In this document: piece after piece, positions 51,994 through 56,301 of the stretch | Layout: every line of letters starts with the position of its first letter | How positions within the stretch are numbered: position 1 is the stretch's first letter | Source of the DNA: Treponema sp. | GTDB taxonomy: Bacteria > Spirochaetota > Spirochaetia > Treponematales > Treponemataceae | Length of the DNA: 56,301 bases | NCBI GenBank assembly: GCA_012520945.1 | Contig: JAAYNH010000070.1 | Location: forward strand, 1 to 56,301 | Direction of reading: 5' to 3' | Notes under the pieces: generated by a model | Database searches by the model: none | What the model saw: only the letters and a program-made list of their open reading frames with translations | What the model was told of the DNA's origin: nothing | Made by a program: the position numbers and the translations under genes

Positions 51994-53065
51994 CTATAAC
52001 GAAAAATTCAGCGATTCAATTGCATTCGTTGTATAAATTGCCTTGCGAATATCTTTCGGATAATTAAAAAACTCCGTAAGATTATTCCAGTTGCGTTCCC
52101 ACGAAGCATGAATCATCGGATATTTAGCATCCCATTTTTTTTCGAATTCATCAAGAGCCTCATGCCCACTTTCTGCATTGACAGCGGAATAGATTGCTTT
52201 CAAATCTCTACAGACAGCTTTCAGGTCTTTGTACGAAACGAATTTTGTGGAATTACGAATCATATGCACAATACAATGTTGAATGTGCGTGTGAGGAAAG
52301 ACCGCGTTAACTGCATCAGGAAATCCGGTAAGACCATCCATGCATGCAATGAGAATATCATCAAAGCCACGGTTTTTGATATCCGTTAGAACGCTCATCC
52401 AGAACTTAGCACCTTCCGTATCTGCAAGCCACAGTCCCAACACCTCTTTTTTGCCTTCCCAATTGATTGCCAGAGCCACATAGAGTGCTTTATTGACATT
52501 TTTTCCATCCTGTCGTGAATTTACACGTAATGCGTCAAGGAACAGGATTGGATATGATGTTTCAAGCGGACGATTTTGCCACTCACGCACATCGGTCAGA
52601 ACGGAATCGGTGATGTTAGAAATTGTTTCAGGAGATACTTCAACGCCGTATACCTGTCGTAGATGGCGCTGAAGTATCACGCGTGCTCATCCCAAATGAG
52701 TACATCAAAATAATTTGATCATTAAACAGTGGGGTGCGTTTTTCATGTTTGGGAATTATTACCGGTTCAAAGGTGCTGTTCCTGTCACGAGGTACCTGAA
52801 TTTCTACGGTGTTGTTGTCTTTGGTAATGACTGTTTTAGACGTGTAGCCATTACGGCTGTTCCCGGAATTATCTCCGGCATTGTCATGTTTCTTGTAGCC
52901 TAAATGCTCATCCATTTCAGCATTTAATATGCGCGAATAAAAACGACTTGTCAGTTGTCTGAGTAAACCGTTTTCCCCCGACAACTCTTCTGCTGTCATC
53001 CCATGAAAATCAATATGATCTAACATGTGGTCGATGACATCTTTTTTTTTTGTTTTGACCAACAA
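51994..53065 (-). pseudogene. IS256-family (mutator) transposase, frameshifted and truncated
   Basis: Two overlapping frames together give one transposase. The first (52640-53065, TTG start behind AGGAGG) runs to SFGMSTRD. The second (51994-52680) continues RHLRQVYGVEVSPETIS. One extra base near 52668-52672 causes the break. DDE residues are seen in LFLDALRV, CMDGLTGFP and TTNAIESLN. The protein stops five residues after AIESL, about 50 short of the family end. No terminal inverted repeats could be paired. Nonfunctional as it stands unless the frameshift is bypassed. Confidence 0.85.
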
Positions 53066-53112: not shown

Positions 53113-54015
53113 TTACAGACTTTTATGCACACCCTCATTATCCTGGATAATATCGTTAACTAAATTCATAGATTGCTCCGCTAGAGCTGTTAGAACAGTT
53201 TTTAGTGTTTTTGTATTTTTTAGATAATTCATAGCCTCTTTCATTGTGACACCCTCAACACCAACTGCTTTTGCTACAGCCTCTTGAAGAACACCATTCT
53301 CTAAACTATTACCAAGAAAATCATCTAATATCTTTGTACCAGCTTTTGAAATTCCATACCCAATAGAGGCACCAATCATTCCTATCACACCATCTTTTAT
53401 AGAATCAATAACGTCGATTTTTCCCGTTACAAATAATCCTTCTACCATACTTCCCGCGGTACTTCCACAAAAACCCGCAATTGCTACAGCTCCAAAACCG
53501 CCAGTATCAATTGCAAAACCTATAGCAGCCCCTGCTATTGCACCTCCTACTGCCCCACCTATTACTTCATTAAAACCTCTCTTCCCTTGCACTACAGCAC
53601 TTAATCCACCAGCCAAAAAACCTATTAAGGCACCTGCTACTGTTGCAGCCCGACCATCCGGATCCACGTACTTCACGGGATTATTGCCCGCGTAATGATA
53701 CAGATGCAAGTTCACGGTGTTGAATACTCCACCCATGCCCGGGAGGTTTTGGTTGTGTTTGCGGGCCTCGTCGTTGACGGGTGCTCCGGGAATATACTCT
53801 CCCAATGCAGGGTCTGCGCTTAGCCATATGCTATACTTAGGATCTAGGTAGCGAGCACCATAATAATACAGTCTTGTCTCCGGGTCAAGTTCTTTTCCTG
53901 TGAATTTGTAGGGTAAGAATTCTGAGCCAGTGTTGCTTGTTTTCTCAACCCATGTTTCACCGTATGGCGTATATTCTATGCGTTGATATTCATCGCCTTT
54001 GTAGTGTAAGTTCAA
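53113..54015 (-). CDS. Orphan Rhs tip with Gly/Ala-rich C-terminal domain
   Basis: 300 residues. Residues 1-126 are the last part of an Rhs core (GDEYQRIEYTPYGETWVEK, KFTGKELDPET, YYYGARYLDP, GNNPVKYVDPDGR) and match the gene at 55126-56301 almost exactly. From 127 the sequence switches to a unique tip of long hydrophobic Gly/Ala-rich segments (GALIGFLAGGL, GGAVGGAIAGAAIGFAI), then helices ending at KSL. There is no ATG or ribosome site (only a TTG), and the transposase remnant follows at once, so the true toxic end and its immunity gene may have been lost. Confidence 0.75.
   Translation of the reverse strand: MNLHYKGDEYQRIEYTPYGETWVEKTSNTGSEFLPYKFTGKELDPETRLYYYGARYLDPKYSIWLSADPALGEYIPGAPVNDEARKHNQNLPGMGGVFNTVNLHLYHYAGNNPVKYVDPDGRAATVAGALIGFLAGGLSAVVQGKRGFNEVIGGAVGGAIAGAAIGFAIDTGGFGAVAIAGFCGSTAGSMVEGLFVTGKIDVIDSIKDGVIGMIGASIGYGISKAGTKILDDFLGNSLENGVLQEAVAKAVGVEGVTMKEAMNYLKNTKTLKTVLTALAEQSMNLVNDIIQDNEGVHKSL
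53654..54005. repeat. 352-base direct repeat, copy A (Rhs core 3' end)
   Basis: Matches copy B at 55652-56003 over its full length with scattered mismatches and no gap noticed. The match breaks sharply at the start of the unique toxin tips and again just past GDEYQ on the other side. Confidence 0.85.
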
Positions 54016-54022
54016 TTTTTTA

Positions 54023-55129
54023 TTAGTTGTAATCTAAAAAATTAAAAAATTTTCCATCTGAATTCAAATAATTATAATTTCCATTACGTTTTATTAATAC
54101 CATCTTATCATCGATGATCTTTATAAGTGAAAAGTTTTCCGACTTTCTGTTTCCTTTTATATCAGCAATATAAAAGGACTTTTTATCAAAAGAAACAATT
54201 AATAGTTTTTTAGACAAAACATAAATAAATGAATACTTTTTATCAAGTATAATATTTCCTTTCTTATCGATAAGAAAAAAAGTTTTATTGTCTTCACTCA
54301 CTTCCGCTTTTCCATATTTAAAATTATCAGCATAGATATAAGTTGGAGGAATTATCCATTTATCCTTCAAGTTTTTATAGCCATACAATGAGTATTCTGC
54401 ACCCTTTTCGGATACATATTTTTCTCTACATTTTACAACACCATCTGAAACAACAGTGTATTCTCCCAAAGTAAAAGAAATAACAACTTTTCCCTCTGTA
54501 TTAACAATTCCACCGAAAGATCCAGACACATTTTCCTGGGCACCTTTAATTTCAATACCATTTTCAACATAGGGTATATAAAAATCGGGTTGAAGTCGTT
54601 TTATCACATAGGAATAACCATTTACAAATTTTGTTACAATGTGATAATCAGAAAGTTTAATCTTTTTTCCAGATGTGTCAATTAATCCATACGTTTCATT
54701 CGTTTTATACTGCACCCATGCAACATTGTCTGAAAAAGGAAGACAATATTCATATTGCGGTGGTATAACAAAATTACCGCTTAAATCTATATAACCAACT
54801 AAATCGCTTTCCTTATCTTTTTGTGCTAACAATCCATTTGAAAAAACGTGGTCCTCAAAATGTCCTTTTCTTTGAAAATCAATTGAAAATAACTTAGACC
54901 CAGAAAAATCATAATAAGTAAATATATCAAACTCTATTTGAGTTGTCGGCTGTTCATAGGCTTCATATTGAGAAACACCGGGTATCTTCGCTGTTATAAC
55001 TTTTCCTTTGTTATCAATAAAAATTACTCCATCATCTTTATTGATTGGATATAACATTGATTTTTCATTTGTACACGAATACAAGAAAAAAAATAATAAA
55101 CAAAAAACAAATAAAATATATTTTTTCAT
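54023..55129 (-). CDS. WG-repeat lipoprotein, candidate immunity protein
   Basis: 368 residues. Signal peptide with a lipobox (FFLYSC, Cys ~19), so anchored in a membrane facing the periplasm. The body is built of WG-type repeats (GVIFIDNKGKVI, VGYIDLSGNFVIPPQYE, YGLIDTSGKKI, GGIVNTEGKVVIS, FFLIDKKGNIIL). Its ATG overlaps the stop of the Rhs toxin gene (ATGA), the usual layout of an effector-immunity pair. A periplasmic place suits protection against a wall hydrolase. It could also be a delivery or binding factor. Confidence 0.7.
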   Translation of the reverse strand: MKKYILFVFCLLFFFLYSCTNEKSMLYPINKDDGVIFIDNKGKVITAKIPGVSQYEAYEQPTTQIEFDIFTYYDFSGSKLFSIDFQRKGHFEDHVFSNGLLAQKDKESDLVGYIDLSGNFVIPPQYEYCLPFSDNVAWVQYKTNETYGLIDTSGKKIKLSDYHIVTKFVNGYSYVIKRLQPDFYIPYVENGIEIKGAQENVSGSFGGIVNTEGKVVISFTLGEYTVVSDGVVKCREKYVSEKGAEYSLYGYKNLKDKWIIPPTYIYADNFKYGKAEVSEDNKTFFLIDKKGNIILDKKYSFIYVLSKKLLIVSFDKKSFYIADIKGNRKSENFSLIKIIDDKMVLIKRNGNYNYLNSDGKFFNFLDYN

Positions 55130-56301
55130 TTTCCACTTCCCTTATTTTCATCATTTACATTTGGAATAGAAGTAGACTCTGTCTGAGGTGTAATATAATC
55201 ATTTAACGGTACGTATTTCAACTCACCATTTCCTTGTTTTTTCCAATGATCTTCAAATGCTTTTAAAGAAGTCCAACGTATATTACTGGCTTTTTTGCCC
55301 TCATTTGTAGAAGAAATATGAGTTACATCAACACTTCCATCATCGTTTAATCCTAAAAGCATCGCATGATTTCCTCCATGAAAAACAATATTCGTGCCTT
55401 TTTCTGGCGCATCTTTAAGATCGTCCTTCATATTTGTTAAATGCGTTGCTACGTTTGTTTCTGTGGCTTCTTTAAAAGAAGAAGGTAAACTAGCTCCACT
55501 TTTTTCTAAATTTATAATATATTGAACAAAAACATCACAATCCCATGCTCCTTCGGTCTTTTTTGTCTCTGGGTTCCATGTACCATGTGTATAAGTTTTA
55601 CCTAAACCAACTGCTGCATCAACAGCCGCTTTCATTTTATCCGTCCACCTCCCATCCGGATCCACGTACTTCACGGGATTATTACCCGCGTAATGATACA
55701 GATGCAAGTTCACGGTATTAAACACACCACCCATTCCAGGGAGGTTACCGTTTCTCTTTTTTGCCTCCTCGTTGACCGGTGCTCCGGGAATATATTCTCC
55801 CAATGCAGGGTCAGCGCTTAGCCATATGCTATACTTAGGATCTAAGTAGCGAGCACCATAATAGTACAAGCCTGTTTCGGGGTCAAGTTCTTTTCCTGTG
55901 AATTTATAGGGTAAGAATTCTGAGCCAGTGTTGCTTGTTTTTTCTACCCAGGTTTCTCCATAGGGCGTGTATTCTATCCGTTGGTATTCATCGCCTTTGT
56001 AGTCAGTGATGAGCTGTGCACTTCCGAGGTGATCAGAATGATAATAATACTGTTTGTAATACTCTTCTTGAGATGTGGGGTCATTGCCACTATTGAGTTT
56101 TGTAACAATACGGGTTTCACCGAGGTAGATGTTCTTTGCAGTTTGTCCACCATAGATAGAATTTCCTGTGTCGGTATGATGTGTCCACATGCTATTGAAA
56201 TAGAGCGTCTCTGAGAAGTCAGTGTATTTATTGCTTCGCTGCCCATCTTGTCCGTAGACATAGGCTGTGTTGTAAAGGGAATCGACAGAGGAGATGAGTT
56301 G
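55126..56301 (-). CDS. Rhs-repeat protein, 3' part, with papain-like (NlpC/P60-type) toxin tip
   Basis: The frame is open to the window edge, so the start lies beyond it. Counting from the Met codon at 56190, residues 1-181 are Rhs core ending in YVDPDGR. The tip (182-354) has GAWDCDVFVQYI (Cys ~218) and HGGNHAMLLG (His ~275), the Cys/His order and spacing of NlpC/P60 amidases and related papain-like folds. Peptidoglycan cleavage in a rival cell is inferred. It is followed by a coupled lipoprotein gene. Confidence 0.8.
   Translation of the reverse strand, partial: QLISSVDSLYNTAYVYGQDGQRSNKYTDFSETLYFNSMWTHHTDTGNSIYGGQTAKNIYLGETRIVTKLNSGNDPTSQEEYYKQYYYHSDHLGSAQLITDYKGDEYQRIEYTPYGETWVEKTSNTGSEFLPYKFTGKELDPETGLYYYGARYLDPKYSIWLSADPALGEYIPGAPVNEEAKKRNGNLPGMGGVFNTVNLHLYHYAGNNPVKYVDPDGRWTDKMKAAVDAAVGLGKTYTHGTWNPETKKTEGAWDCDVFVQYIINLEKSGASLPSSFKEATETNVATHLTNMKDDLKDAPEKGTNIVFHGGNHAMLLGLNDDGSVDVTHISSTNEGKKASNIRWTSLKAFEDHWKKQGNGELKYVPLNDYITPQTESTSIPNVNDENKGSGK
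55652..56003. repeat. 352-base direct repeat, copy B (Rhs core 3' end)
   Basis: Partner of copy A at 53654-54005, in the same orientation and about 2.0 kb apart. Recombination between the two would delete the papain-like tip and the lipoprotein and join the Gly/Ala-rich tip to the full Rhs core. Confidence 0.85.

Follow-up and report, generated by a model that had tools for sequence, protein, structure and literature searches.

A WG-repeat lipoprotein as the probable antidote of a cell-wall hydrolase-like Rhs toxin tip in a Treponema contig

Introduction

Does the lipoprotein gene that directly follows an Rhs gene at the end of a Treponema contig encode the antidote of the toxin tip of that Rhs protein? 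The present study examined this question in a stretch of 56,301 nucleotides from Treponema sp. (GCA_012520945.1, contig JAAYNH010000070.1), which is referred to in its full length as the window. The window is contig C37 of a 2.19-Mb genome (G000), the sole genome of its genus in the searched set; its family, Treponemataceae, includes genomes labeled Treponema sp. A first-pass annotation had proposed a lipoprotein with WG repeats as the periplasmic guard against a papain-like tip. We consider it highly likely that the Rhs tip and the WG lipoprotein form an effector-immunity module of the polymorphic-toxin type, namely, a cell-wall hydrolase with a cognate propeller antidote. This reading draws on the computed gene order, protein families, and fold class, on a pairing conserved across genomes, on co-divergence, and on an orphan antidote in a relative.

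Results

The module lies on the minus strand. A frame is open from 56301, which is the end of both the window and the contig, down to a stop codon at 55126–55128, and the 5′ part of the Rhs gene runs off the contig. Approximately amino acids 1–218 of this frame form the C-terminal part of the Rhs core, the end of the YD-repeat shell (55648–56301; TIGR03696 Rhs_assc_core, 1.4e-16; PF03527 sub-threshold). The core is followed by a toxin tip of 173 amino acids (55129–55647), which corresponds to residues 182–354 of the open reading frame (ORF) starting at ATG, as delimited in the first-pass annotation. An Rhs_assc_core motif followed by a variable tip, which is characteristic of polymorphic-toxin modules, is thus present. 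The stop codon of the Rhs ORF and the start codon of the lipoprotein gene overlap as ATGA (55126–55129), as previously noted, and a purine-rich AGGGAAG is located close 5′ of the lipoprotein ATG, within the last codons of the tip.

The lipoprotein gene (54023–55129, minus strand) encodes 368 amino acids and a putative immunity protein. The lipobox and WG repeats reported in the first-pass annotation were both found. By eye, a signal peptide with a hydrophobic N-terminal stretch and a lipobox-like LYSC (Cys19) occupies 55073–55129. PF14903 (WG_beta_rep) matched at 4.8e-28 with 97.3 bits, against a curated cut-off of 25.6, and covered three WG stretches: the top-scoring repeat at 54707–54796 (46.5 bits) and two more within 54179–54385 (54284–54385, and 54179–54274 with a score below the cut-off). 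No second PF14903 match was found anywhere in the 2.19-Mb genome. The structural model was all-beta, with a predicted local distance difference test score (pLDDT) of 80. It matched beta-propellers in Foldseek (BamB, 5.6e-8) and in a structural alignment (the nine-bladed propeller of eIF3b, Z 14; DPPIV, Z 12), and the lipoprotein is predicted from this model to be a beta-propeller. When the lipoprotein was compared with all PDB sequences by phmmer, nothing matched at E values of up to 1.

The Pfam scan of the tip returned no family matches, including NLPC_P60 and CHAP, above the cut-off, and its relative in locus L047 reached only 0.067. In a ten-sequence alignment of relatives from whole genomes, a D-C-D motif, His69, and His94 were invariant; more distant relatives kept the Cys and two His residues, with the flanking Asp being variable. 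The alignments point to Cys37 (55537–55539) and His94 (55366–55368) as catalytic candidates. Residue 110 (55318–55320) is a candidate third residue; it is His in the window and His, Gln, or Asp in most relatives. One of these three residues is expected at the third position of NlpC/P60 enzymes. The invariant His69 (55441–55443) is specific to the tip family.

A profile of the tip family matched CHAP-type proteins of the PDB in three of its four best matches (E 0.009–0.03) and reached a genuine NLPC_P60 protein of another spirochaete at 1.6e-5. The tip model had a mean pLDDT of 79.5, with values of approximately 90 across most of residues 51–110. In the model, Cys37 starts a helix (37–46) and His94 starts a strand (94–100), and the tip therefore has the predicted arrangement of NlpC/P60 and CHAP enzymes, with Cys at a helix start, His on the following strand, and a polar third residue. 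VIA-align of the model ranked 4xcm, an NlpC/P60 D,L-endopeptidase, first (Z 9.9, root-mean-square deviation 2.9, 113 residues). The next rows were NlpC/P60 and CHAP cell-wall hydrolases (Z 7–9), and the top rows were nearly all hydrolases of this kind. Based on the model and the profile, we read the tip as a divergent NlpC/P60-CHAP peptidoglycan hydrolase by fold that lies outside the curated Pfam family, which sharpens the papain-like assignment of the first-pass annotation. We class it as a divergent relative because the Pfam NLPC_P60 and CHAP cut-offs were not reached and the link to a bona fide member runs through the profile. No relatives of the tip were found among viral contigs, plasmids, or phages.

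The pairing of the tip with a WG protein was then assessed across genomes. In Treponemataceae, 17 tips or tip remnants had a readable downstream gene, and an exported WG protein directly followed 16 of them (signal-like N-termini, by eye). PF14903 was detected in 15 of these proteins, and the partner in G278 was a homologue of such proteins (E 4e-31). The exception was a tip in G456, the partner of which is an exported non-WG protein of 223 amino acids. At the sensitivity used, PF14903 detected approximately 47 distinct WG genes in 36 of the 274 family genomes. The chance of a random neighbor in these genomes being a WG gene is approximately 7e-5, assuming some 2,400 genes in each genome at a density of approximately one per kb. 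The first-pass annotation had named, as an outcome that would speak against it, that the partner of homologous tips is always an unrelated gene; this was not the case, and the apparent immunity role of the WG lipoprotein is supported by the 16/17 pairing, as judged from sequence. The cognate gene is thus located directly 3′ of the tip and moves with it, as expected of a member of this class.

Outside Treponemataceae, tip-WG pairs were found in G012, G713, and L047. The contig of L047 is labeled Prevotellaceae, and the 239 further Prevotellaceae genomes searched yielded no match. The Rhs core of L047 is similar to the spirochaetal core, and the GC content of 41% gives no verdict. L047 may be a mis-binned contig, and we do not count it as proof of spread to Bacteroidota. 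Exported proteins of other kinds are the partners of eight further tips outside Treponemataceae, of which five form a single clade in family f3. The WG state occupies two deep clades in a tree built from 26 tips and switches four times, a pattern consistent with the antidote having been replaced. The nearest relatives of the window tip by tree path are those of L047, G288, and G149, all of which are Rhs tips with WG partners.

The tip occurs on three carrier types: the Rhs core, proteins with a double-glycine leader, and gp19 tail-tube proteins. The leader is exemplified by MNFDQLIAVNGG in G368. In G456, the double-glycine carrier adjoins an ATP-binding cassette (ABC) transporter with a C39 peptidase, and in G056 the tip is located behind a gp19 tail-tube domain (PF06841, 2.5e-34). 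At another G056 locus, a diverged Cys-His tip is joined to a fourth type of N-terminus, and a WG protein follows. The description of the window locus as an Rhs cassette holds in that an Rhs tip has a WG partner, but the pairing is not Rhs-specific because it also occurs on double-glycine and gp19 carriers. Across 16 pairs, the divergence of the tips parallels that of the WG proteins (Mantel r 0.77, p 5e-5), which shows the pair travelling together across carriers.

A relative of the module that has lost most of its toxin was identified in G187. This locus consists of a newer tip with a small gene, followed by an Rhs core fragment, the last approximately 40 amino acids of the tip, and an intact WG lipoprotein gene. 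The product of the latter shares 71% amino acid identity with that of the window, with nonsynonymous (dN) and synonymous (dS) divergences of 0.16 and 0.71, respectively. In the type VI secretion system (T6SS) of Vibrio cholerae, displaced modules lose the old effector and keep the immunity gene (PMC5361080). The footprint in G187 matches such displaced effector-immunity modules and thereby favors the role of an antidote over that of an export accessory of the toxin.

Discussion

The findings suggest the following mechanism. The Rhs protein or another carrier would deliver the hydrolase to a competitor, and the tip would then cut peptidoglycan in the periplasm of that cell. A periplasmic target is suggested because the partner proteins start with signal-like sequences, as judged by eye. 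The WG lipoprotein, encoded directly 3′ of the tip, would be translationally coupled to it. Its propeller, if lipidated at the lipobox, would be anchored in the periplasm, bind the toxin, and shield the producer and its kin from the enzymatic activity. By analogy with Tse1 and Tsi1, it would most likely cover the Cys-His active site, possibly with a loop inserted into it. The toxin-WG pair would move as one cassette among Rhs shells, double-glycine-leader proteins, and gp19 tail-tube proteins.

Other explanations were considered. The juxtaposition of the tip and the WG gene may be due to chance if these genomes commonly encode WG proteins of the envelope, and WG genes without a tip do exist. 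However, PF14903 was detected in just 36 of 274 family genomes and in one gene of the genome of the window, while 16 of 17 tips were paired, on three carrier types. Chance adjacency was rejected on these counts (16/17 against approximately 47 WG genes in 274 genomes), and we regard its probability as negligible. The lipoprotein may instead be an accessory of the toxin, such as a chaperone, an export adaptor, or a surface tether. Its gene is located 3′ of the toxin, its product is exported by sequence, and BamB, its structural match, is an assembly lipoprotein. We consider this role very unlikely: the WG gene follows the tip rather than the carrier, and is paired with it whether the tip is on an Rhs, a double-glycine, or a gp19 protein; the lipoprotein is intact where the toxin has shrunk to 40 residues; and other tip clades carry other exported partners in the same place, which fits interchangeable antidotes. 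A target other than peptidoglycan is also unlikely, albeit slightly less so. The tip may be a papain-like protease or transglutaminase whose substrates are proteins, either those of a competitor or those of a eukaryotic host; papain-like folds serve many functions, and C39 peptidases and deubiquitinases occur further down the VIA-align list. In contrast, cell-wall hydrolases of the NlpC/P60 or CHAP type filled nearly all of the top structural rows, the CHAP type accounted for three of the four best profile matches, and an exported antidote implies a periplasmic target.

The copy in the window may also be silent, as a leftover orphan cassette located 3′ of a full-length Rhs gene, with the lipoprotein kept as an antidote against siblings. 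The tip would not be made unless recombination moved it onto a full-length gene. This possibility is compatible with the effector-immunity identity of the module, and it is one that we take seriously while leaning somewhat against it. The next cassette (53113–54015, minus strand), which is within the range covered by the first-pass annotation and absent from it, is clearly a truncated orphan. It comprises a second, truncated Rhs core fragment (53629–54015), which starts 7 bases past the lipoprotein stop and shares 89% nucleotide identity with the first core over 352 bp, and a second tip (53113–53628), which is hydrophobic, Gly-rich, without a Pfam match, and unrelated to the first. No immunity gene follows it. 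Two different tips are therefore located behind 89% identical cores within one window, and this succession of core, tip, lipoprotein, core, and tip looks as Rhs cassette arrays usually do. Tandem core-tip cassettes were also found in L047 and G187. Moreover, the sole long Rhs body of the genome is on another contig (C43; 3024 amino acids; SpvB, TcdB_toxin_midN, FG-GAP, and RHS repeats, with ZU5 sub-threshold). It is a different copy from the Rhs gene of the window because the core ends are only approximately 82% identical at the DNA level. However, the frame in the window is open and core-homologous up to the contig end, without a break in the 148 amino acids aligned to the C43 core.

Several further points weigh against an effector-immunity module or narrow it. 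Foldseek of the tip model was weak (best E 0.065, none at E 0.001), and the Z score of 9.9 came from a second look; the fold claim rests on VIA-align and the sequence profile, not on Foldseek. Co-divergence is expected of any linked genes, and the dN and dS values of the G187 lipoprotein may reflect the time before toxin loss. Nine tip loci have non-WG partners (five in family f3, two in G012, and those in G738 and G456). Because of these loci, the WG protein is the main, but not the obligatory, partner of the tip. The suggestion that a WG lipoprotein always follows homologous tips was thus borne out for 16/17 in Treponemataceae and failed at these nine loci, mostly in other families. Approximately two thirds of the WG genes of the family are not directly behind a detected tip. 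We had also considered that every WG gene follows a tip. This was not so; most of the others adjoin unrelated genes or genes for other exported proteins, and some are near C39-like tips on double-glycine carriers.

The proposed effector-immunity module resembles several known systems. Tse1/Tsi1 (Tae1/Tai1) of the Pseudomonas aeruginosa T6SS is a bicistronic pair of an NlpC/P60 amidase and a periplasmic partial-propeller immunity protein that occludes the Cys-His site and is most similar to DPPIV propellers (PMC3391265). As in Tse1/Tsi1, the gene for an NlpC/P60-type hydrolase adjoins that for a predicted propeller partner, with the likeness being in fold class alone. No shared sequence family was found, with the lipoprotein having been compared by phmmer against all PDB sequences rather than in a search targeted at Tsi1. 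The partner in the window is a longer WG-repeat propeller with a lipobox, whereas Tsi1, which is described as periplasmic, forms a partial propeller, and the tip is carried by Rhs, double-glycine-leader, and tail-tube proteins, whereas Tse1 is free T6SS cargo. The module is also similar to the Tox-NLPC/P60 polymorphic toxins of Zhang et al. (2012, PMC3482391), in which a papain-like toxin with C, H, and D residues ends Rhs proteins, including those of the TcdB/TcaC-type export class, to which the SpvB/TcdB_toxin_midN-type architecture of the C43 body corresponds. Zhang et al. left this entry without an immunity partner, and the module in the window supplies a putative one. X-Tfi XAC2610 and PliI are described as propeller-topology inhibitors of cell-wall hydrolases that insert a loop into the active site (PMC10933484). 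In contrast to the partner in the window, PliI targets i-type lysozyme, and neither protein is reported as a WG-repeat protein in the passage concerned. The truncated toxin with a retained immunity gene in G187 and the tandem cassettes resemble orphan immunity arrays of the V. cholerae T6SS (PMC5361080) and Rhs C-terminal displacement, with differences in carrier and toxin class.

No immunity or inhibitor role of WG repeats (PF14903) was found in the open full-text literature that was searched. The mechanism class is known from Tse1/Tsi1, and the WG antidote family and the range of carriers appear to be new. The present results provide a candidate function for WG_beta_rep, a repeat family without a described role in that literature, and a putative immunity partner for a toxin class that lacks one in the main catalogue. 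In spirochaetes, the same putative cassette of toxin and antidote is found on carriers that serve three or more delivery routes. If the proposed module is correct, WG genes beside papain-like tips may serve as a marker of cell-wall-targeting weapons, and orphan WG genes may be a readable record of past encounters. The WG propeller would then be a second propeller solution for blocking NlpC/P60 enzymes beside Tsi1, and a clean case of convergence. We tentatively speculate, with considerable doubt, that WG-repeat propellers serve generally as an antidote scaffold against toxins of the papain-like kind (NlpC/P60, CHAP, and C39-like), reused across Rhs, double-glycine, and contractile-tube carriers, and that many WG proteins of unknown function are immunity proteins or orphan antidotes of warfare at the envelope.

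Additional observations

Directly after the second Rhs cassette, a Mutator-family (PF00872) transposase gene at 51994–53065 is broken into two overlapping frames. It is probably a decayed insertion that ended the Rhs array; no convincing inverted repeats flanking it were found. PADLOC returned nothing.

The same hydrolase domain was observed after a double-glycine leader in another spirochaete family (L041 1909–2875, L042 6167–7128, L043 6236–7195, L044 8156–9083, and L046 2822–3689). The partner at these loci is a small exported protein of approximately 116 amino acids, one of which was scanned and gave no Pfam match. This protein is a putative second, unrelated type of antidote for the same toxin. 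A C39-like peptidase gene is located near at least three of these loci and was confirmed by Pfam in L042 only. Exported proteins with MORN-like repeats (by eye) follow the WG gene in L040 (1793–2506) and L125 (2409–3194) and are possible further immunity proteins.

Other carriers were also noted. Proteins in L122 (4467–7255) and L124 (6572–7852) share an N-terminus (MAAESLTRSS...) and have different C-termini, one of which is a diverged papain-like tip with a WG protein after it; they make up an unnamed carrier family. The gp19 tail-tube proteins of L115 (10633–12372 and 15731–17157) vary in their C-terminal extensions, and an exported protein comes after each. They resemble a family of polymorphic toxins borne on tail tubes; no further tail or sheath genes were recognized by eye within 18 kb. 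C39-like papain tips (by eye) occur on double-glycine carriers in L123 (993–2666), L141, and L142, with a WG lipoprotein gene directly after one tip and a WG gene one gene further in two. WG proteins may guard against more than NlpC/P60 toxins.

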